A DNA stretch of 33,354 nt from a virus. The stretch is from IMG/VR virus record IMGVR_UViG_3300032164_000042, positions 1-33,354 of that record. The stretch is one strand, 5' to 3'. Position 1 is the stretch's first letter, and each line of letters begins with the position of its first letter. The notes under the pieces are model-generated. The model worked only from the letters and a program-made list of their open reading frames with translations. It did no database searches and was not told where the DNA came from. This document shows positions 2,049-21,745 of this stretch, piece by piece. A program made the position numbers and the translations under genes.

Positions 2049-2387
2049 ATGCAAATAAAGCGCGCCCCCATCAAGCCTCAGGACTACGACAAGGTCGTCC
2101 ACATCGACCAGTCCGCCACGCACTGGGCCCTGGAGCATTCCAGGCACGCCGCAGCGTCACAAGATGCCCTGTCGACCTTCCGGGACCTCACCTCGGCCAA
2201 GAACAAGGTCGTGACCGAGCTGTGCAAGGCGGCCGGCTTCGGGATGGAAAGGGTCGTCCAGGCACGCCTGGTCAAGGACGGGGAGGACGTCTTCGTGGAG
2301 GTCGCCGTCCAGGACGAGCCCGTTGACGGAGTACCGGACGCCCCCGCCGAGGCCGCCCCCGCCGAGGCCGCGGCGCCAGCCTCTTGA
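2049..2387 (+). CDS. hypothetical protein with Ala/Pro/Glu-rich tail
   Basis: This 112-residue protein follows the previous gene by 21 bases. Residues about 15-90 appear helical then beta (THWALEHSRHAAASQDALST, then ERVVQARLVKDGEDVFVEV). The last 20 residues are a low-complexity run of APAEA units. No known family is recognised. Its place between leader proteins and the cysteine-knuckle structural gene suggests a virion or assembly role. Confidence 0.65.
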   Translation: MQIKRAPIKPQDYDKVVHIDQSATHWALEHSRHAAASQDALSTFRDLTSAKNKVVTELCKAAGFGMERVVQARLVKDGEDVFVEVAVQDEPVDGVPDAPAEAAPAEAAAPAS

Positions 2388-2412
2388 TTGGACCTCCAAG
2401 TGAGGTCCCGAA

Positions 2413-3738
2413 ATGCCGTTCCCGCCGGACAGGCCGCCCCACATACTCGAGCAACAGTATCCGGCCGCCCCACACCCTCCTCTCAACTTCTCCGTACAGT
2501 CCGGGCTTGAAAAGGGCGTCATCGACCTCCGGTGGACTTCCCCGGCGGCGATATCCTCGAACACGAAGTTCGACCTTGTTGGGGTGAACGTCTACAGGAG
2601 CTTCGACTCGGAGTTCGGCCCGTACTTCCGGATGAACTCTCTTCCCGTGGGGTCGACGTTCTGGAGAGACCGGACGACCGTGTCCGTCGCCCTTCGCGAG
2701 GACGTGTCCAAAAAATTCGTCTCGCGCGGGGACACGGACCCGTCCAGAACCTGGGTTTTCCGGACGGCCAACAGCCCCATAGTCCTCGACCCGGTCATCG
2801 GAGGGACAGAGTGCACGGACCTCAACGTTTATGTGACCGTGAACGGCGTCCGGGCCTGGATCCGCCGGATCGTGGCTTATCTCGGGGAGGTTGAGCTCGA
2901 GCCGTTTCCGACGTTCGACGTTGCATCCCAGCAGCAGTTCCCGGCCGTCCTCCCCTTGAACGAGTCGGACGTCGTCCTGGCGACGTACAGGTATGTCTCC
3001 AAGAAGGTCCGCACGGACCTTGGGCAGCGCATCTTCTACCGCATCACGACGGTCGCGCGCGACCGGGAAACCGGACAGCTCATGGAGACCGCCCTGGACC
3101 GGGCTGCCCAGGGCAACAACCAGCAGACGGAGACACTCGACTGGATTTGGCGTGAGGCCGTCCGCCGCAACCGCTTCCTTCTCCATCAGGGAGGCGAGCG
3201 CGTGAAGGTGTTCATACGGCGCGACGTCGGTCCGAGGTGCGGGTGCAGCTCCGACCTCCACAAACAGCCGTCCTCGGACTGCCTCGTCTGCTATGGGACT
3301 GGAGTTATCGGCGGGTACGACGGCCCATATGACCTCATCGTCGCGCCGGACGACGCGGAGCGCAAGAAGGCCCAGAACAACCGTGGCCGTACTCTCGAAC
3401 ACTCCTATGAGTCGTGGACCGGGCCGAGCCCCCTCCTCTCCCAGAGGGACTTTGTCGTAAAGCTCAACGGCGACAGGTACGGCGTCGGGCCCGTCCGCAT
3501 GCCGACCGCCCGCGGGATGCAGCTTCAACAGTTCTTCAACCTGTCCCACCTCGACGAGCAGGACATTCGCTCCAAGGTTCCGGTCCTCGACACGGCCGTC
3601 ATGGAGTCTCCGCGGACGAGGTACGCCCCTCCCGGCACGGGCGTCGCTCAGCCCATGGTCACCGAGCGCAAGGCAATCCCTGACGAGCGCGAGTTCCGGG
3701 GAAACACCGTCGCGTTTGAGAACGCTCATCGTCGCTGA
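2413..3738 (+). CDS. structural protein with FN3-like N-terminus and four-cysteine knuckle
   Basis: The 441-residue product has an N-terminal beta domain (residues about 20-75) with the strand pattern GVIDLRWTSP and VGVNVYRSFDSEFGPY, resembling a fibronectin type III fold. A central beta-rich region follows. Cysteines 276, 278, 290 and 293 (RCGC ... DCLVCYGTGVIGGYDG) form a probable zinc knuckle, and the CYGTG/GGYDG signature resembles neck or connector proteins of large myoviruses as I remember them. A start at 2413 is preceded by GTGAGG at 2400-2405. The next gene begins two bases after its stop. A head-tail joining role is likely but not proven; an adsorption-apparatus protein is the alternative. 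Confidence 0.7.
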   Translation: MPFPPDRPPHILEQQYPAAPHPPLNFSVQSGLEKGVIDLRWTSPAAISSNTKFDLVGVNVYRSFDSEFGPYFRMNSLPVGSTFWRDRTTVSVALREDVSKKFVSRGDTDPSRTWVFRTANSPIVLDPVIGGTECTDLNVYVTVNGVRAWIRRIVAYLGEVELEPFPTFDVASQQQFPAVLPLNESDVVLATYRYVSKKVRTDLGQRIFYRITTVARDRETGQLMETALDRAAQGNNQQTETLDWIWREAVRRNRFLLHQGGERVKVFIRRDVGPRCGCSSDLHKQPSSDCLVCYGTGVIGGYDGPYDLIVAPDDAERKKAQNNRGRTLEHSYESWTGPSPLLSQRDFVVKLNGDRYGVGPVRMPTARGMQLQQFFNLSHLDEQDIRSKVPVLDTAVMESPRTRYAPPGTGVAQPMVTERKAIPDEREFRGNTVAFENAHRR

Positions 3739-3740
3739 AC

Positions 3741-4427
3741 ATGGCGTACGACATTGCCACGACCCTGAACGCCTCGATGTTGAGGATCGTCGACGCCGTG
3801 ATCGACGCTATAGCTGTCGACGGCGTTACGGCGTTGAAGCACGTCCTTGACGACGCGGGATTTTCAAAGTCGGAGGCCCTCAAGGACTATGAGGTCTACG
3901 CCCATGTAAGCGGAAGGACGATCACCTTTGAAATTCTCGTCCCGAAGGACGCTTTCGACACCAATGACGCGGACACCAAGGACGCCCTTAGTAAAGCACG
4001 TGATGACTCTGAAGACGCCGACCACGACCCTGGCGTACGCACGTACGGGTTCCAGCCGACTTCGAAGCCGGGTCGCTTGACCGGCCGGCGCGACGCCCGG
4101 CGCGACGCCCGGAAGTCGGTGTGGGATGGACGGCGTGATGCCCGGAAACCGCCGAAGACCCTCAACAGCCGCGCGAAGACAGCCCAGACTCGCCTGATAG
4201 AGCACGAGGCCGCCCTCCACTCTCCGAGGTCCATGAAGGTCAGTAGGGAGGGCAAGGTCTCCCTGAAGATGACGAAGACAGTGGAGGACACTCCGGAGGG
4301 CGGCGTTCGCATGCCGAAGGGTAAGTTTCAGGGCGTTATTGGGAAGTTCATGGAGAGCCTCGAGAAGGTCATGGTCGAAAACTTCGTCCCTGAGCTTGAG
4401 GAACTCCTCGCGAGGCGTCTGAGTTGA
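3741..4427 (+). CDS. probable tail-completion or neck protein with RDAR repeats
   Basis: This 228-residue protein has an N-terminal alpha-beta part (residues about 1-75, with ASMLRIVDAVIDAIAVDG and DYEVYAHVSGRTITFEIL). A strongly basic linker carries repeated RRDAR units (residues 115-136). The C-terminal helix is amphipathic (GKFMESLEKVMVENFVPEL). This order of short beta domain, variable linker and long terminal helix resembles HK97-gp10-type tail-completion proteins, but sequence similarity is too weak for a firm call. It is tightly packed: the TGA stop overlaps the next ATG (TGATG). Confidence 0.6.
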   Translation: MAYDIATTLNASMLRIVDAVIDAIAVDGVTALKHVLDDAGFSKSEALKDYEVYAHVSGRTITFEILVPKDAFDTNDADTKDALSKARDDSEDADHDPGVRTYGFQPTSKPGRLTGRRDARRDARKSVWDGRRDARKPPKTLNSRAKTAQTRLIEHEAALHSPRSMKVSREGKVSLKMTKTVEDTPEGGVRMPKGKFQGVIGKFMESLEKVMVENFVPELEELLARRLS

Positions 4428-5050
4428 TGCTCTACAAGATAACCAACCTGCTCTCCACGAGCCTGACTGTGGAGGACCTCGGAATTCTCCTGCCTGCGAA
4501 GGGCTCTTGCACTGTCCGCGCTGACTCCTGGGCACAATCGAACGACGCCCGAAGCCTCGAGGCCAAGAGGTGGGTCCGGGCGGACAAGCAGTACGTTCAG
4601 GGCCAGCCTCCTTCCTCCGTCATGTCCGTTCGCCAACCCCCGTCGGCCCTGGTCCCTCAGGACCCGTCTCCCCCGGTCTCGCAGTCGAGAATCGACACGC
4701 CGGCCGTGTCCGGCGTTCCGGTGTCCCAGGAGTCCTTCGACAGGTTCCTCAAGAACCAGGAGGAGCTCATGAGGATGATGACGGGGCTCGCGGGGGCCGT
4801 CCCGGCGGGAATGGACCAGATCAACAAGTCGATCCAGGCCATGCCCGCTCCGGCCGTCGTTCCATACAGGCCAGGCTCCGTCCAGGCTCACGAGTACTCT
4901 CCCTCGGCCCGCGGGGCCGATCCGATGTTCATACCCACGAAGATCGTCCCGGACGACGCGCAGGCGAACATCAAGGTTCAGGAGGGGGAGGTGCAGACCG
5001 ACGTGGGCTCGAGCGTCGACGCCCTCCGGAAGATGCGCAAGAAGCCCTGA
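4427..5050 (+). CDS. structural-region protein with beta N-terminus and coiled-coil middle
   Basis: The ATG at 4427 overlaps the upstream TGA, so this 207-residue start is preferred over the TTG one codon earlier. Residues 1-30 (LYKITNLLSTSLTVEDLGI ... KGSCTVRADS) look like a small beta domain. A Pro/Ser/Val-rich linker follows, then a helical segment with Met and Glu (residues about 105-140, FDRFLKNQEELMRMM), and an extended C-terminus. The gene ends 46 bases before the actin-like gene, with a GTAA-loop hairpin between. No enzymatic motif is seen; a minor virion or assembly factor is likely. Confidence 0.6.
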   Translation: MLYKITNLLSTSLTVEDLGILLPAKGSCTVRADSWAQSNDARSLEAKRWVRADKQYVQGQPPSSVMSVRQPPSALVPQDPSPPVSQSRIDTPAVSGVPVSQESFDRFLKNQEELMRMMTGLAGAVPAGMDQINKSIQAMPAPAVVPYRPGSVQAHEYSPSARGADPMFIPTKIVPDDAQANIKVQEGEVQTDVGSSVDALRKMRKKP

Positions 5051-5065
5051 CGCCGGGTAGGGTAT

Positions 5066-5081
5066 TCTGTCGTAAGACAGA
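5066..5081 (+). promoter_or_regulatory. 6-bp hairpin with GTAA (GNRA-type) loop
   Basis: TCTGTC (5066-5071) and GACAGA (5076-5081) are perfect complements around a GTAA loop, which would be a stable GNRA tetraloop in RNA. It sits in the 46-base gap before the actin-like gene and just upstream of its GGAG ribosome-binding site (5085-5088). It could be an RNA processing or stability element, or a translation control site. No U-tract follows, so it is not a classical terminator. Confidence 0.45.
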
Positions 5082-5096
5082 TACGGAGACTTTCAA

Positions 5097-6098
5097 ATGA
5101 GCAAATTGCCGGAGGATTGCGGAGTGGGCCTGGACTGCGGGACGATGAACTTTGTCTCCGCTAGGCGATCTGGGAAGAAGGTCACCACGGCCCGCGTCCG
5201 GGATGCGTTCATCGATCTGCCCCCTGAGCACAAGCGCATGCTGAAGCTCTCGAACACGGCCTTCGCCGAGGTGGACGGAAAGCTCATCGTCGTCGGGGAC
5301 GACGCGCTGAACACCGCCAACCTTCTCAACCGGGAGGCCCGCCGTCCGCTCCAGGGCGGCCTCATCTCCGCCGGCGAGCTCGACGCCCAGACGATCATCT
5401 CTCTCATGATGAAGCAGATTCTCGGCGAGCCGAAGAAGCCCGGGGAAAAATGCTGCTATTCGGTTCCGTCCGCCGCGGTCGACGTCGGGGGTTCGGACGT
5501 GACATACCACGCCGCGATCCTCGGGAAGATCGTCAAGGAGCTCGGCTACGACGCTGAGCCCGCGAACGAGGCCCTCGCCATCATCTTCTCCGAGTGCACG
5601 GCCGAGAACTTCTGCGGTCTCGGCATCTCTTATGGTTCGGGCATGACGAACGTCTGCCTGGCGTTCAACGCCATGTCGGCCCTCGAGTTCTCTCTTGGCC
5701 GCGGGGGTGACTGGATCGACAATGGCGCTGCCAAGGCCGTCGGGTCCACGAAGGCCAAGATGTGCTCTCTCAAGGAGTCGGGCATCGACATTACGAAGCC
5801 GAAGGATCGGAGTGAGGAGGCCATAGCCCTCTTTGTGTCGACCCTCATCGACTACACGATCGACAACATCATAGCCCAGTTCGTGAAGGTCAAGAGTGAG
5901 CTTCTCGTCCCCAAGCCCATCCCGATCATCGTCTCCGGCGGCACCTCCCTAGCCGGCGGGTTCCTCGAAAAGTTCCAGGAACGTTTCGAAGAGAAGCGCG
6001 ACCGTTTTCCCATCCAGATCTCAGAGGTCAGGCCTGCCGGAGACCCTATGACGGCCGTCGCCACCGGGCTTCTCGTGCTGAGCCAAATGGAGGACTGA
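5097..6098 (+). CDS. actin/Hsp70-superfamily ATPase (ParM/MreB-like fold)
   Basis: This 333-residue protein has the full set of actin-fold nucleotide motifs. Phosphate-1 is GLDCGTMNF (residues 11-19, Asp13). The phosphate-2 loop is GISYGSGMTN (176-185). The adenosine motif is IIVSGGTSLAGGF (277-289). RGGDWIDNGAA follows phosphate-2, as in several uncharacterised prokaryotic actin-like families. Its length is usual for ParM/MreB-type proteins. The usual phosphate-2 aspartate appears replaced by Ser178. The predicted role is an ATP-dependent filament or chaperone-like ATPase in the host cytoplasm. No adaptor or centromere-like partner is evident next to it. Its position within neck and tail genes is unusual. 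Precedents for phage cytomotive proteins are PhuZ (tubulin type) and AlpC (actin type). Confidence 0.85.
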   Translation: MSKLPEDCGVGLDCGTMNFVSARRSGKKVTTARVRDAFIDLPPEHKRMLKLSNTAFAEVDGKLIVVGDDALNTANLLNREARRPLQGGLISAGELDAQTIISLMMKQILGEPKKPGEKCCYSVPSAAVDVGGSDVTYHAAILGKIVKELGYDAEPANEALAIIFSECTAENFCGLGISYGSGMTNVCLAFNAMSALEFSLGRGGDWIDNGAAKAVGSTKAKMCSLKESGIDITKPKDRSEEAIALFVSTLIDYTIDNIIAQFVKVKSELLVPKPIPIIVSGGTSLAGGFLEKFQERFEEKRDRFPIQISEVRPAGDPMTAVATGLLVLSQMED

Positions 6099-6131
6099 CG
6101 TTTACGAATATTGGTCTGGTAGAGTGTCCAT

Positions 6132-6908
6132 ATGGAACTCCGCTGGACAATATATCGCCACATACATACGGAGACTGGTCGCTGCTACATCGGGTTGACA
6201 AAGCTCACGATGATGAAGCGATGGAACCAGCACTTGAAGAACGCGAAGACAAGAATAGGGCGCGGATGTGCTCATTTCTGGAACGCGATCCGCAAGTACG
6301 GGAAAGACGCGTTCAACCACAAGGTCCTCGAGGTCTGTTCTTCACTTGAGGAGGCGAACGAGGCGGAGAAAGACTGGATCAGGTCTTTCTCTTCTTGGGT
6401 TCCGCAGTTTGGGTTTAATTTAATGAAGGGTGGCACTGCCACCTCATCGAACTCCTTGACTACTCGGGAGAAGCTTTCGGCGGCCACCAAAAAGAGTATG
6501 ACTTCAGACCGACGTGCTTACCTATCTTCTTTACGTAAGGGTAAACCTCTTAGTGAAGAAACCCGGGCGAAGATCAGCGCGTCTGCGAAGAAAAACGGTG
6601 AGAGCATTGCAGCCCGTAATCGTTCTCGCAGTCCTGAAATGATCTCCAAGTTTGTGATGGCTGGTTTACGTGCAAAGACTCCTGAAGTGGTGAAGAAAAT
6701 CGCGGACGCCAATCGCGGGAAGCGTCTTTCACCGGAAAGAAAAGAGAAGCTTCTTGAAGCTGCCAGAAACATGAGTGAAGAGGCTAGAGAACGGATGGGA
6801 AATTCCTTCAAAGGAAGAACTCATTCCGACGAAGTTCGTCAAAAGATCTCCGAAGCCACCCATCGTCAACTCAGGGGACCCGACGGGTGTTACTCGAAAG
6901 AGGACTAG
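6132..6908 (+). CDS. GIY-YIG homing endonuclease with NUMOD3-like repeats
   Basis: The 258-residue product begins with a GIY-YIG nuclease domain (residues about 4-97): TIY at 6-8, CYIG at 18-21, Arg30, Glu79 in EAEKDWI, and Asn96 in GFNLMKGG. The C-terminal two thirds contain several NUMOD3-like DNA-binding repeats (KGKPLSEETRAKISA, RGKRLSPERKEKL, KGRTHSDEVRQKISE). It would cut a specific DNA site and drive its own spread by recombination. Base use is clearly more AT-rich than in neighbours (for example the TTTGGGTTTAATTTAATG stretch), supporting recent transfer. It is free-standing; no intron boundaries are visible around it. Confidence 0.93.
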   Translation: MELRWTIYRHIHTETGRCYIGLTKLTMMKRWNQHLKNAKTRIGRGCAHFWNAIRKYGKDAFNHKVLEVCSSLEEANEAEKDWIRSFSSWVPQFGFNLMKGGTATSSNSLTTREKLSAATKKSMTSDRRAYLSSLRKGKPLSEETRAKISASAKKNGESIAARNRSRSPEMISKFVMAGLRAKTPEVVKKIADANRGKRLSPERKEKLLEAARNMSEEARERMGNSFKGRTHSDEVRQKISEATHRQLRGPDGCYSKED

Positions 6909-6930
6909 TCCTTCTATCGGGGCCCCCGGT

Positions 6931-6938
6931 AAAGGAGG
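6931..6938 (+). promoter_or_regulatory. strong ribosome-binding site
   Basis: AAAGGAGG lies 6 bases before the ATG at 6945, a near-perfect Shine-Dalgarno match and among the best in the window. It fixes the start of the small Pro/Ala-rich gene and suggests high expression of that gene even after insertion of the upstream endonuclease. Confidence 0.8.
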
Positions 6939-6944
6939 CAATCC

Positions 6945-7280
6945 ATGCCCTACTATAAGGGAGTTTACTTCGAGCAGGCTTTCCATCGTGAGGAAGACCT
7001 CCACGCCCACAATGCGGCCACTCCCTCTGGAGACCCCGCAGCCCCGGCCCCGGCCCCGGCCCCGGCCCCCTCCGAACCCGACTTTGCCGTCTCCGTGCCG
7101 GACCGTGAGCCGGTCGACATGGTCGTGACGGTGGAGTCGGATCCATTCCCTTCCTTCGTACCAGAGCCAGAGCCGGAGACGCAGCCCGCTCCCCTCCCCG
7201 AGGACGTAGAAGGCGCGGCGACTCCCGCCGAGACCCCGGATGGGAAGAAAAAGAAGACAAGCCGTAGCGTCAAAGGCTGA
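6945..7280 (+). CDS. small acidic protein with Pro-Ala repeat
   Basis: This 111-residue protein has a short N-terminal motif (MPYYKGVYFEQAFHREEDL), a PAPAPAPA linker encoded by a hexanucleotide repeat, an acidic Pro/Glu-rich middle and a Lys-rich end (KKKKTSRSVKG). It is preceded by a very strong ribosome-binding site. Its TGA overlaps the ATG of the next gene. It is probably mostly disordered; a minor virion or assembly protein is plausible, but no family is recognised. Confidence 0.65.
   Translation: MPYYKGVYFEQAFHREEDLHAHNAATPSGDPAAPAPAPAPAPSEPDFAVSVPDREPVDMVVTVESDPFPSFVPEPEPETQPAPLPEDVEGAATPAETPDGKKKKTSRSVKG
7042..7070 (+). repeat. CCCCGG hexanucleotide microsatellite
   Basis: Four perfect tandem CCCCGG units are followed by CCCCC. 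In frame they encode alternating Pro-Ala. The reverse strand has four GGGG runs and could form a G-quadruplex. Similar GC-only hexamer runs occur at 25277 and 29649. Confidence 0.85.
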
Positions 7281-8488
7281 TGAAGGTCTGGCTGATCAAT
7301 GCCACTAAGAAGAGGGTGATCAAGGAGCTTCGCAAGATCCTCTATGATCACCCAAGGTACAGATCTGACTCGGAGAACGTCACTAACAAGTACTCGTTCG
7401 AAGAGCGCCCGCAGCGTGGAATAATCGTCAACAGCGCTTCGGCGGACCGCGTGCGGCTGTCCGCCGACAACTACGTCGGGCGCCTGTCTTCCTTCTGCAT
7501 GCTCGCTCCCGTGGAGAACGCTCCTGGGACGACGATAGAATGGGTGCGGGAGAATTTCAACGTCCTCGAGCGGGTTTCCCCGAGGAGGGACGTGTTTCCC
7601 GCACCGTCCGGCGTCTATAACATCCTGGTGAATTCCGTTCCGGACGAGGCGCGGAAGGTTCCTGGAGAGTTCGTCGTTGAGCCTCTCCTCACGGAGATCA
7701 ACGAGCCTCTCATCACCTTCACGAGCTCCGGGGATAAGGAGGCGCAAATATCAAGGCGCAACCTTTACCCGGGGTCCGTTCGTCTTTGGCTGGACGGCCG
7801 CCGCGCGCTGGTCCCCGGAACTGACTTCATCACCGACTATGAGACCGGTGAGGTCACCTTCCTGAAGGAGACTCCGACAGGCGGTGTGATCTATGCTGAC
7901 TATCGCTATGTCATGCCGACCCAGGGTCCGTTCCACTACGAGCGAGAGCAGGTGAATCTGGACGCTGTACCGGGCGTCGTCATCGCCTTCGGCGACCGGC
8001 CGCAAGAGTGCGACAAGCAGTGTGTGGTCGTCACGGACGAGCGGACGGACGTGGCCGAGGTCTACGGCGGGAAGTATGAGGTCGCGTTTGAACTCATCGT
8101 GTTCGCCCGCGACGCTGAGGATCGCGAGAAGCTCGCGGACTATGTGATCGTGAAGGTCCTCGAAATTCAGAACTCCCTTGGGTTCGAGGGCTTGGAGCTC
8201 CTCGACATCGCCCCCGGCGGCGAGAATGAGGAGGTATATAACTCTGACACGGACGAGTATTACTACGAGACGACCGTCTCGCTCTCCCTTCGCGTCGACT
8301 GGGAGGTGTACGTGCCTCTGCCGATAACCGTCATCCGTGCGGAGAACACCTCTCGCGCTGCGGAGGTCGAGCATGGGTACCTTGACGGGAGCTATCCGCT
8401 TGACCTTCTCCGGTCGACGGGTCAGCTTGGGGCCGCCGGGGTCGGCGTATCTATCGGGCGGGACCTCACTTACGAGCGAGTCCGTTAG
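7280..8488 (+). CDS. probable tail terminator / tail completion protein
   Basis: The 402-residue protein has two recognisable parts. The middle (residues about 155-215) is a beta module (LYPGSVRLWLDGRRALVPGTD then EVTFLKETPTGGVIYADYRY). A similar module recurs in the sheath protein. The C-terminal region (about 225-355) shows the alternating pattern of tail-terminator folds: YEVAFELIVFARDAEDREKL, a helix, then YYYETTVSLSLRVDWEVYVPL. Placement shortly before the sheath gene fits a protein that caps the tail. The start overlaps the upstream stop (TGATG). The terminator assignment is inferred from pattern and position. Confidence 0.6.
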   Translation: MKVWLINATKKRVIKELRKILYDHPRYRSDSENVTNKYSFEERPQRGIIVNSASADRVRLSADNYVGRLSSFCMLAPVENAPGTTIEWVRENFNVLERVSPRRDVFPAPSGVYNILVNSVPDEARKVPGEFVVEPLLTEINEPLITFTSSGDKEAQISRRNLYPGSVRLWLDGRRALVPGTDFITDYETGEVTFLKETPTGGVIYADYRYVMPTQGPFHYEREQVNLDAVPGVVIAFGDRPQECDKQCVVVTDERTDVAEVYGGKYEVAFELIVFARDAEDREKLADYVIVKVLEIQNSLGFEGLELLDIAPGGENEEVYNSDTDEYYYETTVSLSLRVDWEVYVPLPITVIRAENTSRAAEVEHGYLDGSYPLDLLRSTGQLGAAGVGVSIGRDLTYERVR

Positions 8489-8508
8489 TAAGGTTCGGCA
8501 GGTGAACC

Positions 8509-8961
8509 TTGCCGACCTTTGAGTACTTTTGTGACGACTGTGATGCCGAGTTCGAAGAGCTTCTCCTGAAGAAGGAGGAGATCCAGGAGTACTTCGACCA
8601 TCACCCGTGCCCGAACTGCAAGAACAGGGCGGAGCGCATCCGCGTTTCCTCCTTCAGCTTCAAGTTTGCCGGAGGGGTCGACAAGGGGGCCGGCAGCGGC
8701 GTTCACGGGAACAGCGGGGTGCACGATCTTGACTATCCGGTTGTTGACAAGGCGGTCGGCCGGTCGGCTGAGGTCAAGTGGGGTGAATATAACGCCCGCA
8801 AGGAAGCTCGCGACAAGGTGCGCCGGGAGGCCGGGACGAACGCAGTGTCCCAGGCCGGGGACACAATAGCCCCTGCCGACGCCAGCACGATTCGCGACCG
8901 TGAGAAGGCTCTGAAGCTGCTCGACAAGGCGAAGAAGTCCGCCCCGAAGACATCCGAGTAG
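8509..8961 (+). CDS. FmdB-type zinc ribbon protein
   Basis: This 150-residue protein begins PTFEYFCDDCDAEFEELL and continues with CPNCKNRAERIRVSSFSFKF. That is the FmdB/CxxC zinc-ribbon pattern: paired CxxC motifs at residues 8-11 and 34-37, followed by a short strand. The start is TTG at 8509; no in-frame ATG precedes the conserved P-T-F-E-Y beginning. The C-terminal half is basic and helical and ends in a Lys-rich stretch. FmdB-like ribbons are common in phages with unknown roles. The gene lies between the terminator candidate and the sheath gene, so an assembly or late-regulatory function is possible. Confidence 0.8.
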   Translation: MPTFEYFCDDCDAEFEELLLKKEEIQEYFDHHPCPNCKNRAERIRVSSFSFKFAGGVDKGAGSGVHGNSGVHDLDYPVVDKAVGRSAEVKWGEYNARKEARDKVRREAGTNAVSQAGDTIAPADASTIRDREKALKLLDKAKKSAPKTSE

Positions 8962-9097
8962 GCCCCTCCAATAGGCTCTTCATGCGGCGTGCAGGGTTGA
9001 AGTGACCCTTCACGTAGACGCATACGCATACCCCACACTGCTCTAGAGAAGAGACGCATACCGGTATTTAGACTTCTGCTCACTGAAGGGAGCTAAC
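8962..9097 (+). promoter_or_regulatory. leader region of the sheath gene with iterated ACGCATAC
   Basis: This 136-base gap is the longest non-coding stretch in the window. ACGCATAC occurs three times (9018-9025, 9024-9031, 9054-9061), two of them within a ten-base direct repeat AGACGCATAC (9016-9025 and 9052-9061). A 5-bp stem AGGGT/ACCCT (8993-8997, 9005-9009) and the palindrome CTCTAGAG (9041-9048) are also present. A ribosome-binding site GAAGGGAG (9085-9092) precedes the ATG at 9098. It is a likely late promoter or 5' UTR control region for the highly expressed sheath gene; no consensus sigma-70 promoter is clear. Confidence 0.5.
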
Positions 9098-12000
9098 ATG
9101 GGCATCGGACCTTTTACGACCTACGCACCTCCGGGCGTCTACGCGCAGACCGTTGTCGAGCCGGCGGTTGGCCTGCTCCTTGGGGGCCTCCGGGTCCCGG
9201 TCCTGATCGGCGTGGGCAAAGAGTCTCTCTCCCAGACGAACTTCGAGATGATCCGCGGATCCTCGAGCGTCGCGGATACACCGATCTTCGGCGAGGACGC
9301 CCAAGGTCGTTGGATTTCCGGTGGAACCGTCCAAAGCCCGATCCTCGGGAACCAGGACGGAAACAAATCGAAGTTCAAGGTCCGCAATTATCCGATCGTC
9401 GACGGCCAAGGCCGTGGCTCGGCTACCTACGACGCGAGCAAGGTCTCGGTCTCCGTTAACGGAGCCCCCGTCGTCGTCGCGGCCATCGACGGTCCGAACG
9501 GACTCGTCTCGCTCCTCGTGCCTCCGGCTGAGGACGACAAGGTCACGATCAACTACTTCTTCCACCGCAAGGATACACGGATCACCGACGACGTGTCGGC
9601 CCAGATCACCGACGGTCCGGCCATCCTCGTCGCTCCGAAGACGGAGACTTACGCGGTCACCCTCGGCTCGAACGACAAGCTCGACATCACGCTCGACGAC
9701 ACGGTCCCCGTGACGATCGTCCTGACGTCGGGCGTCACGCGGACCGCCACGGACGTCGCCAACGACGTGAACGCCGCGAACGTCCCGGGTCTCACAGCCT
9801 CGGTGCACATCGACAACGAGGGGCTCGCCCACGTCCAGCTGATCGCCCTCGGAAACATCCTCGTCGGTAGCGGCGGCGCGAACGGAGTCCTCGGCTTCAA
9901 TGCGGGCGACTACACCGCTCGCACGCAGTCATTCCGCGTGTTCAACGGCCCCGTGGTCGATGGCTCTGATGGTGGCATCACGACGACAGACCCGTCCAAG
10001 GTGACGGTGACGGTGAACGGGACCCAAGTCCTCGCCAAGTCGGTCGACGGTTCCCAGCGCCTCGTCGGCCTTCCCTTCGCGCCGAAGAGTGGCTCGAAGG
10101 TCCTCATCACCTACTACTTCAACACGTCCCAGGATACGTTCGACTACCTCCCGAACAGCAACATCATCACGGTCGGGAACGTCGGCATTGCGCCCGGCCG
10201 CCGCGACTTCCTCAACGGTCCGGACTTCATCGTCGTCAACGACGGCGACCAGTCCAAGATCCAATGGGGGACGGCCTTTCAGGTCCAGGCCGGCGACAAG
10301 ACCGGGTCCGCGTCCTTTGACTCCACCCAGATCGTCGGCATGCTGGTCGACGACAGGATCTTCGGCGCTCCCTGCGCCAGGTTCGTCGACACGACCACGA
10401 GCACTGTCTCCACGACCAAGTTCCTCCTTCCGGAGGTCCCCACCAGCGGAAACGGTCGCGATACGCCCCTCGGCCAGGCGACTTACACCACCATCACGAA
10501 CGGTCGCCTTGACCTTCCGACGAACCGCCCGGACCTCGTCACGGTCTACGTCGGCAAGACCTGGCGGGACGCTTCATCCCGCCCTCCGGTCAAGGTCCTC
10601 GAGGTCGACAGCTCCACGAACATCGTGACGCTCGCCACCCCCGTGTCGGCCGAGTACAGGGCGTTCGCGACGTTCTGGTACAACCGGATCACGGACGACA
10701 CCTTCACCCTCTCGGTCCTCACGCCCGGTTCGTCCGGCACCGGAAGCTACTCGATCGCGTCCGCGCTCAGCGGGGCCCTGGTCTTCGGAGCCAAGTTTGG
10801 CGTTAAAGCCTCCCTTCCGCAAACCATCCAGTGGCCCTCCGGTACCGAGAGCCTTCCGGACGCCATTCACACCGGCGCCGGAAACCCCGTCGCTGAGACC
10901 GTCACCGTCACCTTCAACACGGCCCTCGACCCGGCGACCCACGCCTCCTTCTCCAACCAGAAGCAGGAGCCGTACGACATCTACCAGGCGACCCGCATCT
11001 TCGGCGGGATGATCATCGACGGGAACCCCGCGGTCTCCGTCGACCTTTCGCTGCAGTACAAGGCGGTCCTTCTCTCCAGCGGCGTGACTGAGCCCCTGTC
11101 GATGCTCTCGACGGACCGCCTCGTCCTCAACGTCGACGGCGTGAACCTCATACCCGTCAACATGACCGGCCTGACGACCCTTGCCGCCGTCGCTGCGGCC
11201 GTCAACGCGGTCATCGACGCTGACGTCCAGGTCCACGCGGATGGGTCGGTGACCTTCGCCGCGACGGCCCCCAACAACCTCGTGTCAGTCGTGACGTACG
11301 GGCTCCAGAAGATCCTCTCGATCAAGGCCCGGAGCCTCCCCTCGTTCACGAACGGCCTCGTCTCGAGCGTCCTCATCATGTCGCCCACGGCGGCCGGCGA
11401 GACGGACGCCTCCGGAAAGGTCGGCCTCGAGCCGAACCAGGCGGCCACGGGCTCGTACAACGCGATCAATCAGGTGGCGACCCTCGTCGGCACCCAGACC
11501 GGTCCGTTCAACATCTCCACGGGCGTCAACGACTCGTTCCAGCTCAACGTCGACGGCAAGGACGTTACGACCACCCTCCCGGGCGGCACGGCGGTCCTCC
11601 TCCAGGACGTCGTTACGTCGATCAACGACTCGTACATCGCCCTCGCCTCCACGGCCGACATCGCGACCTACACGGCCGACGTGATCGCCCTGGCGAACGA
11701 GATCCGTAGCGACTACAACCTCCACCGCGTCTCAACGGCCTACCACGTGGCGGCCGACGGGACCAACTCTGTCGTCCTTCCTGCCGCCGTCACCCTCGCC
11801 GACGCCCAGGCCCTTCTCAACGACATCAAGGCGAAGTATAACGCCCACCTCTCTCAGGGCGGCGTCCACCAGCTCAGCGACACGTCCAACGCCGTCGCCA
11901 CCGGGAACGCGACCAACCTCCAGTCGGCCGTTGTCCTCGCGAACGACCTCAAGGAGTTCTACAACTCCCACCTCGTCCAGATTGGTGTCCACGGCTTCGA

Positions 12001-14152
12001 CGACACGGTCGACACGCTGACCCCGGCCCTCCCTCCGGTCGTCAACACCGACTGCTACCCGATCCTCAACGACATCAAGGCGAAGCTCAACGCTCACTTC
12101 TTGCTGGCCGGCGTTCACATCATCAACGATGTGACGGACACGATCACGGCGCCCGCCGCCTTCTCCCAGCTCACGGGTGAGGCCCTCGCGAACGACATCA
12201 AGACGAAGCTCAACGTCCACCTTGCCTCCACGAACTACCACTTCGTGGCGGACACGACCAACGTCATCACGTCGGTCGCCGCCTCCAGCCCGGCGTCCCT
12301 CGTCGCCCTGACGGCGGAGCTCCAGGTCAAGTACCCAGTCCACCTGGCGCAGACCCAGGGCCCGTACCACGTCCACGGCACGAAGGACGCTGTGAACCAG
12401 GCGACCACGTCTATGACGGAGCTCGTGGCTCGTACTGGCGCCGGTATCAACGCTGGGAAGCTGGTACTCACCTCACGCCTCAACAACGCCTTGTCCTCCC
12501 TGAATGTCAAGTCGACTAGCACGGCGAACGACGTCCTCGGCTTCGTCTCCGGCGGTTCGGCCCAGCGCAAGCAGCCGACGGCCTCCGATATCGCCAACGC
12601 CCTCAATGCCAACGCGTCCTTCCAGGCCGTCGGCGTGTCGTACCGCGTCGCATCTCCCGGCCTCGGCGGGTTCCTCCGCATCGACTCCCTCACGACGGGC
12701 AACCTATCGACTGTGGCGTTCTCGAACGTCTCGAACACGGCCTTCGTCACGGACACGAAGCTCGGAATCGTTCCGGGTACCTCGGGTGATGTCGGCGAGA
12801 ACGCCCAGGCGGGCTTCTCCGTCTCCTCCTCCCAGGGCCTTCTGGGCTCTCACGGCACCGGGTTCCCGGGCCAGACGTACACGGATGTCACGACGGGACT
12901 CCGGTTCACCGTCCTCAAGGCGGTCGCAGGCGACTACGCCAGTGGTGGAAACTTCACCCTCGTAGTCGGTCAGTCGTTCATCACGGACGCCTCGATCCCG
13001 ATCAAGGCCATCTCAGGCGTCGAGATCACGGTGTTCAACACCAACAACATGAACCCGGGGACGACGGCGCTCGTCAGCACGTACGCCCGTTCGGGGACGG
13101 AGCCGGCCATCGGCGACGTTTACTACGTCTCCTACGACTACGCCAAGACGGACCTCTCCACGCAGCTCTTCCGGGAGATCAAGAAGATCCAGCAGAACTT
13201 CGGCTCCCCGACGCCGGATAACCCGCTCTCGCTGGCCGCCCGCATCTGCCTCCTCAACGGCGCCATCCTCATCGGCCTCAAGCAGGTCCTGAGGGCGGAG
13301 GGGTCCTCGCAAGCCGGCGGCGGGTCGTTCATCGCGGCCATCGACGAGCAGCGCAAGCCCATCCAGGGATCGGTCAAGCCGGACGTCATCGTCCCGCTCG
13401 CCACCGATCCGACGATCTTCTCCTCCCTGAACCAGCACTGCGTGTTCATGAGCACGCCGCGCCAGGAGGGTGAGCGGATCGGCGTTGTGGGCGTCGCCGC
13501 GGGGACCAATCCGCTCGGCGTCCAGGCCATCGCCAAGGGGCTCAACTCCGAGCTGATGCTCGTGTCTTACCCCGACACGTACGTCCTCTCGGTCTCGGAC
13601 GACCAGGGCAACCTGACCGACCAGCTCGTCGACAGCTCATACATGGCCGCGGCGCTCGCCGGAACCCTGACGAACTCCGCGTTCGACGTGGCCACTCCGC
13701 TCACCCGGCGCTCCATCGTTGGCTTCAAGCGGCTCGGGCGCCTGCTCGACCCGACGGAGGCCAACCAGGTCGCCGTCGCCGGAGTCTCGATCATCGAGCA
13801 GGTCGACACCGGAATGCGCGTCCGCCACGGCCTGACGACGAACGTCGACACGGTCATCACGCGCACGCCGTCCGTCACACTGACCATCCACTACGTCCAG
13901 CAGACGATGCGGAAGGTCCTCGACCCGTACATTGGCCAGAAGCTCACGGGCTCCCTGATCAAGTCGGTCGAGAACTCGATGGTCGGCGCCTTCTCGCAGC
14001 TCGTCGACCAGCAGATCGTGCAGAAGGCCACGGGCATCGAGGTCACGGTCGACGACAACGACCCGACCATCCTCCGGGCGTCGGCCATCTACGTCCCGGT
14101 CTTCCCGCTCGAGTATATAGTGGTCACTCTTTCCGTACGCATCCGCGCGTAA
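9098..14152 (+). CDS. giant tail sheath protein
   Basis: The 1684-residue product is a contractile tail sheath protein. The N-terminus has the sheath-type YAPPGVYAQT (residues about 8-17). The last ~320 residues carry the conserved polymerising domain: RRSIVGFKRLGRLLDP, RVRHGLTTNVDTVITR, VTLTIHYVQQTMRKVLDPYIG and YVPVFPLEYIVVTLSVRIRA. Typical sheaths are about 400-750 residues, so some 900 extra residues lie in the middle. These include two copies of a beta module (starting near residues 93 and 279), flagellin-like VDG/DVANDVNAA modules, and six tandem 41-42-residue repeats with paired histidines (residues about 864-1110). The insert probably projects from the outside of the tail. A GAAGGGAG ribosome-binding site and a separate leader suggest strong expression. 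Confidence 0.92.
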   Translation: MGIGPFTTYAPPGVYAQTVVEPAVGLLLGGLRVPVLIGVGKESLSQTNFEMIRGSSSVADTPIFGEDAQGRWISGGTVQSPILGNQDGNKSKFKVRNYPIVDGQGRGSATYDASKVSVSVNGAPVVVAAIDGPNGLVSLLVPPAEDDKVTINYFFHRKDTRITDDVSAQITDGPAILVAPKTETYAVTLGSNDKLDITLDDTVPVTIVLTSGVTRTATDVANDVNAANVPGLTASVHIDNEGLAHVQLIALGNILVGSGGANGVLGFNAGDYTARTQSFRVFNGPVVDGSDGGITTTDPSKVTVTVNGTQVLAKSVDGSQRLVGLPFAPKSGSKVLITYYFNTSQDTFDYLPNSNIITVGNVGIAPGRRDFLNGPDFIVVNDGDQSKIQWGTAFQVQAGDKTGSASFDSTQIVGMLVDDRIFGAPCARFVDTTTSTVSTTKFLLPEVPTSGNGRDTPLGQATYTTITNGRLDLPTNRPDLVTVYVGKTWRDASSRPPVKVLEVDSSTNIVTLATPVSAEYRAFATFWYNRITDDTFTLSVLTPGSSGTGSYSIASALSGALVFGAKFGVKASLPQTIQWPSGTESLPDAIHTGAGNPVAETVTVTFNTALDPATHASFSNQKQEPYDIYQATRIFGGMIIDGNPAVSVDLSLQYKAVLLSSGVTEPLSMLSTDRLVLNVDGVNLIPVNMTGLTTLAAVAAAVNAVIDADVQVHADGSVTFAATAPNNLVSVVTYGLQKILSIKARSLPSFTNGLVSSVLIMSPTAAGETDASGKVGLEPNQAATGSYNAINQVATLVGTQTGPFNISTGVNDSFQLNVDGKDVTTTLPGGTAVLLQDVVTSINDSYIALASTADIATYTADVIALANEIRSDYNLHRVSTAYHVAADGTNSVVLPAAVTLADAQALLNDIKAKYNAHLSQGGVHQLSDTSNAVATGNATNLQSAVVLANDLKEFYNSHLVQIGVHGFDDTVDTLTPALPPVVNTDCYPILNDIKAKLNAHFLLAGVHIINDVTDTITAPAAFSQLTGEALANDIKTKLNVHLASTNYHFVADTTNVITSVAASSPASLVALTAELQVKYPVHLAQTQGPYHVHGTKDAVNQATTSMTELVARTGAGINAGKLVLTSRLNNALSSLNVKSTSTANDVLGFVSGGSAQRKQPTASDIANALNANASFQAVGVSYRVASPGLGGFLRIDSLTTGNLSTVAFSNVSNTAFVTDTKLGIVPGTSGDVGENAQAGFSVSSSQGLLGSHGTGFPGQTYTDVTTGLRFTVLKAVAGDYASGGNFTLVVGQSFITDASIPIKAISGVEITVFNTNNMNPGTTALVSTYARSGTEPAIGDVYYVSYDYAKTDLSTQLFREIKKIQQNFGSPTPDNPLSLAARICLLNGAILIGLKQVLRAEGSSQAGGGSFIAAIDEQRKPIQGSVKPDVIVPLATDPTIFSSLNQHCVFMSTPRQEGERIGVVGVAAGTNPLGVQAIAKGLNSELMLVSYPDTYVLSVSDDQGNLTDQLVDSSYMAAALAGTLTNSAFDVATPLTRRSIVGFKRLGRLLDPTEANQVAVAGVSIIEQVDTGMRVRHGLTTNVDTVITRTPSVTLTIHYVQQTMRKVLDPYIGQKLTGSLIKSVENSMVGAFSQLVDQQIVQKATGIEVTVDDNDPTILRASAIYVPVFPLEYIVVTLSVRIRA
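11687..12425 (+). repeat. six tandem 41-42-codon repeats inside the sheath gene
   Basis: The encoded units follow the pattern L-x-N-[DE]-[IL]-K-x-[KED]-[YL]-N-x-H, then about 5 residues, [YV]-H-x-x-x-D, then T-x-x-[VI]. They start near residues 864, 905, 946, 988, 1029 and 1070. The spacing between equivalent Asn positions is 41, 41, 42, 41 and 41. Each unit has two His and usually one Asp in fixed positions. The sixth is more diverged. DNA identity between units is modest, so this is an old protein-level repeat and not a fresh DNA duplication. Confidence 0.9.
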
Positions 14153-14796: not shown

Positions 14797-15282
14797 ATGG
14801 ACATCAGACGGTCGTACCTTCCCGGCTTTGAAAGGACCAATCGGGACATCCTGGACTCGATTGACCTCCTTCGCCGCACCGACCTCGGGAGGCCCGGGAA
14901 GAGCTCTGTTGGCGGATGGCACAGTCACGACCTCAGCACCGCGGTCCTTCCCGGGTTCGACGCACTGTCCGCCTTCCTTCGAAAGGAAGTCGGCGGTTTT
15001 GACGAGCTATGGGCTATCGTCAACGGGAAGGGGCATTTCAACCGCCAGCACAAGCACAACCCGGGCCGGGTCTCAGCCGCATACTATATCCAAGTCCCCC
15101 GCCCGGCCGCGGCCATCGTCTTTCCCGGCGTTCGAGGCCGACGCATAGAGCCGGAGCCAGGGCTCCTCCTCACCTTTGACGGGAGCCTTACCCACAGCGT
15201 CGAGGTGAACGAGTCGGACGGGCTTCGCGTCTCCATATCGTGCAATTTCCTTGTGAGCTCCCGGTCTTTTTTCAGGACCTAG
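14797..15282 (+). CDS. 2OG-Fe(II) oxygenase-superfamily protein
   Basis: The 161-residue protein matches the TIGR02466-type oxygenase pattern. It has GGWHSHDL near residue 39 and HFNRQHKHNPG at 80-90 (candidate metal ligands His85/His87). AAYYIQVP follows. GLLLTFDGSLTHSVEV at 122-137 contains the distal metal His133, and GLRVSISCNF contains Arg144, which would bind the 2-oxoglutarate carboxylate. Family members are non-heme iron hydroxylases; the substrate here is unknown. It is the first plus-strand gene of the accessory block, just beyond the HNH gene. The stop is followed within 35 bases by another gene on the same strand. Confidence 0.75.
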   Translation: MDIRRSYLPGFERTNRDILDSIDLLRRTDLGRPGKSSVGGWHSHDLSTAVLPGFDALSAFLRKEVGGFDELWAIVNGKGHFNRQHKHNPGRVSAAYYIQVPRPAAAIVFPGVRGRRIEPEPGLLLTFDGSLTHSVEVNESDGLRVSISCNFLVSSRSFFRT

Positions 15283-20248: not shown

Positions 20249-21745
20249 ATGAAGGGCCTTCTGAAAAGGACTGCGTCGTACCTTGGAAAGCTCCAAGAAC
20301 AAGAGTATGGCGTCACGCCCGTCCTCTCAGGCGCCGTTAACTATCTGGTCGACAGTTATTTCGCCAAGATTGACGCCCGGATGGCCGCGATGGACCGTGG
20401 CCCGGAGATCCCGTACGACCCGGTCGGGTACCTTAAGGAGCTCTGGCTCGGCTGCGAGATTCACCAGGCGGTCACGCTGAACGAGAAGCGCCCGGCCTGG
20501 ATGAAGGGACAGATGGCGTACGCCTTCTGGTGCCTCTTCACCGGCGACTCTTCCACGTACGATGCTGTCCCTTTCATCGACTCTTACGCCTTCAAGGAGG
20601 CGGTCAAGGGCGTCTACGCGCTCCGCATCCAGTCCGCCATGCTCCCGATCGCGCTCGGGGAGTCGATGAAGCTTCCGGTCTTCGGGACGTTCTTCGTGAA
20701 GGACCGCGGAACTGGCCAGCAGGTCCTCGTCAACGTCGACTTCGTCCACGACGACCCCTTCAGCTGCAACCTGACGGTCATGTCGAGTCCCGGCAGCGCG
20801 GCAGCGGCGGAGAACTTCCTGGCAGCGCTCGCCCAGTCGCTCGTCGCGAACGATATATACCATCGTCAATGCCTCACGTTCACGAAGGGGTACCTCGACT
20901 TCACGGCCGTCACGAAGACGTCCTGGGGCGGGATCATCCTCAAACCCCAGATCAAGGACGTGATACGCCAGAACACGGTGTCCGTCCTCAACAACATGGA
21001 GGCGCTGGCGAGCATCAACCTGTGCCCGAACAGGAACACGCTCCTCATCTCGCCGCCCGGCATGGCGAAGACGAGCATCTTCCGCGCGATCTCCCACGAG
21101 CTCGAGCAGCAGATGACGCGCATTTGGTGCACCGGAAAGTCCATCGAGTACGCCGAGCACGTCACCGCCCTCTTCTCCGCGGCTCGCTCCCTCGCTCCCT
21201 GCATTCTCTTCATTGAGGACATGGACCTCTTCGGGGCGGACCGGAGCTCGGGGCTTTCGAGCCAGTCCGTGCTCAACGAGTTCTTGGCCTGCCTTGACGG
21301 CGCGCAGGAGAACTTCGGCGTCGTGGTCGTGGCCTCGACGAACGACTTCAGCTGCATGGACGAGGCTCTTGTCAACCGCCCCGGGCGCTTCGACGTGAAG
21401 GTGGAGATCCCGTTCCCCGACGAGGAGGAGCGCCACAAGATGCTCGTCACGTTCTTCGACTCCTACAAGTCCGGGCCCGACGCGTCCGTGACTCCGGAGA
21501 TCTGGAAGAACGTCATCGGGATGACGGACGGCTTTACGGGCGCCTACATGCGCGATGTGGCCAAGAGCTGCGTCATTCGCGCGGTCGACTCCGGCTGTTT
21601 TGACGGGGTTTGCGCCACGTTCTCGGCGGACCACCTCATCGCCGCGGCAGAACAGTCCATGCGCAACTACCAGCTGGGTAAGCGGGCCAAGAAGCACCAT
21701 GTCGACCTGGAGGCCTCCGTCGAGGGTCTCTTGAAGGCCGGCTGA
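20249..21745 (+). CDS. AAA+ ATPase (CDC48/FtsH-type module)
   Basis: The 498-residue protein has a long N-terminal region (1-250) of unknown fold and one AAA+ module. Walker A is SPPGMAKT (268-275, Lys274), Walker B is CILFIEDMD (318-326), sensor 1 lies in VVASTND (360-366), and the second region of homology is NRPGRFD (376-382). Walker A has Met-Ala where Thr-Gly is usual. No protease domain or second AAA module follows, so it is probably an unfoldase or remodelling ATPase. It leads a group of plus-strand genes that continues to the tail tube gene, suggesting a role in assembly or in host takeover. Confidence 0.88.
   Translation: MKGLLKRTASYLGKLQEQEYGVTPVLSGAVNYLVDSYFAKIDARMAAMDRGPEIPYDPVGYLKELWLGCEIHQAVTLNEKRPAWMKGQMAYAFWCLFTGDSSTYDAVPFIDSYAFKEAVKGVYALRIQSAMLPIALGESMKLPVFGTFFVKDRGTGQQVLVNVDFVHDDPFSCNLTVMSSPGSAAAAENFLAALAQSLVANDIYHRQCLTFTKGYLDFTAVTKTSWGGIILKPQIKDVIRQNTVSVLNNMEALASINLCPNRNTLLISPPGMAKTSIFRAISHELEQQMTRIWCTGKSIEYAEHVTALFSAARSLAPCILFIEDMDLFGADRSSGLSSQSVLNEFLACLDGAQENFGVVVVASTNDFSCMDEALVNRPGRFDVKVEIPFPDEEERHKMLVTFFDSYKSGPDASVTPEIWKNVIGMTDGFTGAYMRDVAKSCVIRAVDSGCFDGVCATFSADHLIAAAEQSMRNYQLGKRAKKHHVDLEASVEGLLKAG

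Follow-up and report, generated by a model that had tools for sequence, protein, structure and literature searches.

The window analysed here, the complete 33,354-base IMG/VR record IMGVR_UViG_3300032164_000042 and apparently a piece of a larger virus, encodes a giant tail sheath protein with six histidine-bearing repeat units in its middle. Judged by its sequence matches, the protein is a true contractile tail sheath, found in a clade of huge phages. The explanation proposed here, which has an even chance of being correct, is that this sheath has been enlarged by beta domains and carries an inserted, mobile and probably metal-stabilised three-unit domain on the outside of the tail. The repeat cassette is an uncatalogued domain, with no Pfam family and no fold match in the PDB.

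Identity and Parts of the Sheath Protein

The following parts of the protein can be distinguished, all on the plus strand:

9098–14152, +, giant tail sheath protein of 1684 aa (ORF, PHROG, tblastn and alignment of relatives; weak Foldseek matches)
9098–9277, +, N-terminal part of the sheath core, residues 1–60, kept in all relatives (occupancy 0.97–0.99 in a 23-protein alignment)
9644–9928, +, beta domain copy S1, residues ~183–277 (hhalign, S1 versus S3)
11111–11377, +, beta domain copy S2, residues ~672–760 (hhalign, S2 versus S3 and S1 versus S2)
11489–11641, +, first part of beta domain copy S3, residues ~798–848, strands and a helix, followed by the cassettes (hhalign, AlphaFold)
11690–12061, +, units 1–3, residues 865–988, first three-unit group (unit profile)
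12062–12433, +, units 4–6, residues 989–1112, second three-unit group (unit profile)
12455–12607, +, second part of beta domain copy S3, residues ~1120–1170 (hhalign)
12956–14149, +, C-terminal part of the sheath core, residues ~1287–1684 (PHROG 2839; tblastn)

The preliminary description had called this a tail sheath of 1684 residues, which is borne out by the uninterrupted reading frame and by a profile search in which residues 1333–1682 matched PHROG 2839, "tail sheath", with an E-value of 1.5e-22. The match to the Pfam family Phage_sheath_1C was below threshold. Using tblastn, 221 phage records were matched, mostly annotated as tail sheath, and the C-terminal matches include the sheaths of phage G, a mycobacteriophage and an Eggerthella phage; both searches place the C-terminal sequence among the sheaths. 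The same description had estimated about 900 added residues. An added stretch was indeed found, but its length is nearer 1100 when compared with the 587-aa phage G ORF, and it consists mostly of beta domains, the repeats taking up only ~250 residues.

The neighbourhood is likewise that of a tail gene. The stretch upstream of the sheath (7280–8488) matches the "tail terminator" of Tunturi_5, 2413–3738 matches its "minor tail protein", and 23855–24529 matches the virion structural protein gp180 of phage G. The tail genes adjoining the sheath are also common to the loci of its relatives.

Several other genes of the window were noted. A volactin-family actin-like protein (5097–6098, +; PF25216, E 7.5e-72) lies within the tail-gene region; a homologue with 49–86% identity occurs in the same region in nine relatives, including LR745208, and the loci of Tunturi_5 and phage G gave no match to it. 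A GIY-YIG endonuclease with NUMOD3 motifs, apparently a homing endonuclease (6132–6908, +), is unmatched at that place in most relatives. Between the sheath and the later structural genes lies a 2OG-Fe(II) oxygenase (14797–15282, +; phrog_81, E 8.7e-19), and an AAA+ ATPase (20249–21745, +; PF00004, E 5.4e-22) is kept among the relatives.

A scan of viral contigs yielded 48 loci, of which ~40 are sheath relatives with about 42–100% identity, many of them full length and up to ~1940 aa long. Many of the contigs reach sizes, 436 kb at the longest, that identify their owners as huge phages. An assembly or gene-fusion artefact, the joining of two genes that the preliminary description had itself raised, has a negligible probability, because ~40 relatives on independent contigs encode the uninterrupted protein in a common reading frame. 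The claim that a sheath carries its own repeated insert in one intact, conserved protein therefore stands.

The Repeat Array and Its Predicted Fold

The six units of 41–42 aa span residues 865–905, 906–946, 947–988, 989–1029, 1030–1070 and 1071–1112. The preliminary description had placed two His and one Asp at fixed positions in each unit, and this was confirmed over residues 865–1112. Of the 23 His residues in the protein, 13 fall within residues 861–1116, and the His periodicity of this stretch was reached by none of 20,000 shuffles. An H-x3-D follows from the second His in all six units (D887, D928, D969, D1011, D1052 and D1097). Five units have their two His spaced by 7, and the sixth has a wider spacing (H1082 with H1091/H1093). 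The consensus is approximately L-A-N-D-[IL]-K-x-K-Y-N-x-H-x6-H-x3-D-x2-N-x-[VI]-T. Units 1 to 5 are alike and show no clear triplet phase; a recent triplet duplication inside the window array was not seen, the DNA identity between units being 47–63%, again with no phase. Across the relatives, the aligned triplets are too diverse to serve as a scan pattern.

An AlphaFold model of residues 795–1180, made from 22 sequences, reached a pLDDT of 89 and a pTM of 0.70. Each unit is predicted to form one helix of ~19–26 residues followed by the His/Asp loop, which in most units has bridge-type residues around the second His. Searches of the cassette against Pfam gave no family, only scattered chance matches with one member each, and searches against PDB sequences gave no relative (best E 0.025). 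Foldseek comparison of the cassette fold found nothing convincing, either in the PDB (best E 0.46, probability 0.02) or in a set of viral models, where the best E was 0.074 over 61 columns. In the PHROG collection, 10 of 21 cassettes matched phrog_37030 (76 aa) and 4 of 21 matched the 67-aa "head fiber protein" family phrog_6994, with a best E of ~5e-6; both are weak matches, about one unit long or less. A head-fibre function drawn from phrog_6994 was set aside, as the match covers only 26–30 residues.

A larger model of residues 485–1684 is of low confidence (pLDDT 68, pTM 0.44) and models the sheath core poorly. Made without the N-terminus, it gave weak matches to the pyocin, Listeria, Desulfitobacterium and T4 sheaths (3j9q, 3lml, 3hxl and 3j2m) with E-values of 0.01 or worse. 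Its weak PDB matches include the flagellar cap protein FliD, in line with the view that the domain receiving the cassette is a flagellar-cap-like beta domain.

Sites of Insertion and the Count of Units

Profile comparison by hhalign of the stretches S1 (180–280), S2 (668–775) and S3 (798–848 plus 1120–1170) revealed that the three are paralogous: S1 versus S3 gave a probability of 98.8 and an E of 1.2e-16, S2 versus S3 a probability of 89 and an E of 2e-6, and S1 versus S2 an E of 1.9e-6. The main cassette breaks S3 after its helix, and S3 is unbroken in L036 and L037, two sheaths that have no repeats. A second cassette, at residue ~724 in a subclade, follows the corresponding helix of S2, so that both cassette sites lie within paralogous domains. 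In the 23-sheath alignment, these two sites alone show differences of more than 20 residues between close relatives.

The number of units at the main site, counted with the unit profile across the sheath relatives, is 0, 3, 6 or 9. It is zero in L036, L037, L038 and L050–L052 and nine in L010, and an extra three-unit cassette sits at residue ~724 in L027, L029, L033, L039 and L041. L026 and L031 have six units as well, counted by eye across inserted stretches. L077, L095 and L103 have an added stretch precisely at the border of units 3 and 4; that of L077 was judged by eye to be an FCCH-like beta domain. On a quick tree of the C-terminal part with long outgroup branches, a minimum of only three count changes (0 to 3 to 6/9) is needed, with one gain of the second cassette.

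A Pfam E1_FCCH domain was recognised in L026 (E 6.7e-9). The repeat regions of L026, L031 and L023 hold E1_FCCH-like beta domains inserted within individual His units, a nesting of domains at three levels.

The Unit in Other Phage Proteins

The preliminary description had proposed searching the repeat alone against phage proteins. Further viral scans found the unit in ~15 non-sheath phage protein types, mostly uncharacterised, so that it is not specific to sheaths. These types carry 3, 6 or 9 units, as counted by profile and partly by manual reading in families that are not all independent, arrays cut by contig ends being left out. Three-unit arrays occur in L042, L044, L048/L066/L069/L076, L049/L068/L093/L114, L065, L089, L090 and L112, and twice in L071. 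In L066 (1236–2576), a gp6-like head-tail connector (PF05135) is broken by a three-unit cassette. L097 has six plus three units, one lacking the loop and another the motif. Exceptions to the threes are the small one-unit proteins of 72–77 aa in L060, L063/L064 and L113.

Circularly permuted arrays, with the loop His at the start and the helix His at the end, were found in L055 (6 and 9 units) and in L074, L075, L091 and L111 (3 each). Taken with the count rule, this permutation suggests that three units close into one domain, in the manner of other circular repeat folds. From its sequence distribution, the His unit appears to be spread between virion proteins, almost always in threes.

Some of these loci have further features. 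L066 has a second unit-bearing ORF just upstream (113–952). On the 182-kb contig of L097, two adjoining large ORFs of 931 and at least 1771 aa (2138–10224) carry 6+3 and 3+3+6 His units, plus one at the contig edge. The adjacent 308- and 449-aa proteins of L055 (3750–6032) consist almost wholly of permuted units.

Among isolated phages (INPHARED), tblastn with the six-unit array, the L042 cassette and a one-unit protein gave no match, and the L055 protein gave one weak match, MW202476, with three permuted units. No relative was found in a scan of 84,980 prokaryote genomes, and a literature search found no account of this particular repeat within a sheath.

Ligand Pattern and Competing Explanations

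The ligand pattern was examined in 193 distinct units, collected with a search profile that itself favours units with both His. The first His (H1) is kept in 190 of the 193 and the second (H2) in all of them. An acid stands at H2+3 to +5 in 158 of the 190 units with both His. Where this loop acid is absent, an acid is found within three residues after H1 in 25 of 32 units, versus 30 of 158 where it is present (Fisher p 2e-10, from rows that are not independent and with relatedness ignored). Counting either place, an acid accompanies the two His in 183 of 190 units, a conserved His2-carboxylate ligand set. Two near-invariant His and an acid that moves between two places fit metal coordination, and each unit probably contains a small His2-carboxylate site. 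The metal coordination proposed earlier is thus plausible, although a hydrogen-bond motif could also account for the pattern. In such a motif, the His and Asp would serve as structural hydrogen-bond and helix-cap residues with no metal. Asp-His and Asn caps are frequent in turns, and the Asn of the unit is conserved too (84%). However, both His are practically never replaced across very divergent proteins, and a carboxylate that is kept while the acid moves is more typical of metal ligands; the metal-free motif is doubtful, if still of some weight.

Alternatively, the unit could be a trimerisation or docking element, with one-unit proteins assembling as threes about a common axis and three-unit chains mimicking the trimer or offering docking sites to other unit-bearing virion proteins. 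The small one-unit proteins do exist alongside three-unit forms, the cassettes match the short phrog_37030 and, weakly, phrog_6994, and the phage that carries L039 also encodes L111, a protein with three permuted units. However, the phrog_6994 match is confined to the short span given above, and the contigs with these sheaths showed none of the one-unit proteins; this explanation is unlikely. The earlier picture of a plain, rigid rod-like array that projects from the tail and binds the host surface agrees with the long arrays of L010 and L055 and with the hair-like tail appendages of jumbo phages, whose responsible genes are unidentified (PMC5259590). It fits poorly with a count that steps by three rather than one and with a cassette set within a beta domain; no host-range link was found. 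An insert tied into a loop at both ends cannot form a fibre with a free end, and the tail hairs are probably a different structure. The rod-like array is accordingly given up, with little probability left to it.

The preferred explanation is that the outer part of the sheath was enlarged by flagellar-cap-like beta domains and that a compact domain of ~130 aa, made of three helix-loop copies, was inserted into a loop of one of them. The helix-loop form of the copies is that predicted by the model. Each unit would have a site formed by the helix-end His, the His of the tight turn that follows and the acid, at H2+4 or no more than three residues from H1; most likely this site binds a divalent metal that would pin the loop. 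With the metal in place, so short a three-unit domain would need no large hydrophobic core in order to fold. As units come in threes, two such domains in a row are the better interpretation of the six units in the window protein. The domain would be mobile between virion proteins, and cassettes would stud the tail exterior with one copy set per sheath subunit. This position is likely, because along the sequence the insert separates the N-terminal from the C-terminal core part and the extra domains of published sheath models lie away from the tube (PMC9230969); the placement leans on those models, as our own larger model has low confidence in the core. There, the cassettes would most likely stiffen the virion by bracing neighbouring subunits, or offer a weakly adhesive surface. 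A bolder version is possible, though not probable: a closed pseudo-threefold His2-Asp/Glu metal module, tolerant of permutation and mobile among virion proteins, that provides a built-in, metal-dependent sheath armour or adhesive.

Comparison with Known Systems

Paired His in a threefold setting are known from other phage tail proteins, namely the spike tips of T4 gp37 and P2/phi92, where HxH motifs in trimers form iron sites. Those tips are homotrimers, whereas here the His are at least 7 apart, are followed by an acid and belong to helix-loop units of a single chain.

The homologous sheaths of three known phages lack the His repeats. Those of Bacillus phage G (gp178, 579 aa) and Tunturiibacter phage Tunturi_5 (1204 aa) have a homologous C-terminal core, with 28.6% and 31% identity, and neighbouring tail genes in common with the window, but a shorter insert. 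The sheath of LR745208, an uncultured huge phage of 485 kb, is closer still (~1650 aa, with 40% identity across 69% of the query).

Sheaths with extra outer domains are already known, and the window sheath is among the largest. In the survey of Evseev et al. 2022 (PMC9230969), 112 sheaths were modelled; by the account given there, the N- and C-terminal parts build the core, the extra domains are most often Ig-like, and a role in stabilising the virion or aiding adsorption was proposed for them. The "type 3" multi-domain sheaths of that survey resemble the window protein in having an N- plus C-terminal core, extra domains in between and large phages as their source. Entries in its table reach at least 1086 aa (Atu_ph07), against 1684 aa here, and the extras described are mainly Ig-like, in contrast to the FliD-like beta domains and three-unit His repeats of the window protein.

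The variable part of this sheath is formed by a domain that has neither a Pfam family nor a solved relative and that obeys a strict count rule. Given the rule of three and the movable acid, a construct of ~130 residues would allow a direct test of the fold and of its dependence on metal. The module is found again and again in uncharacterised virion proteins from uncultured phages; a name for it would at once give many of these an annotation and would help to show how huge phages decorate their tails.
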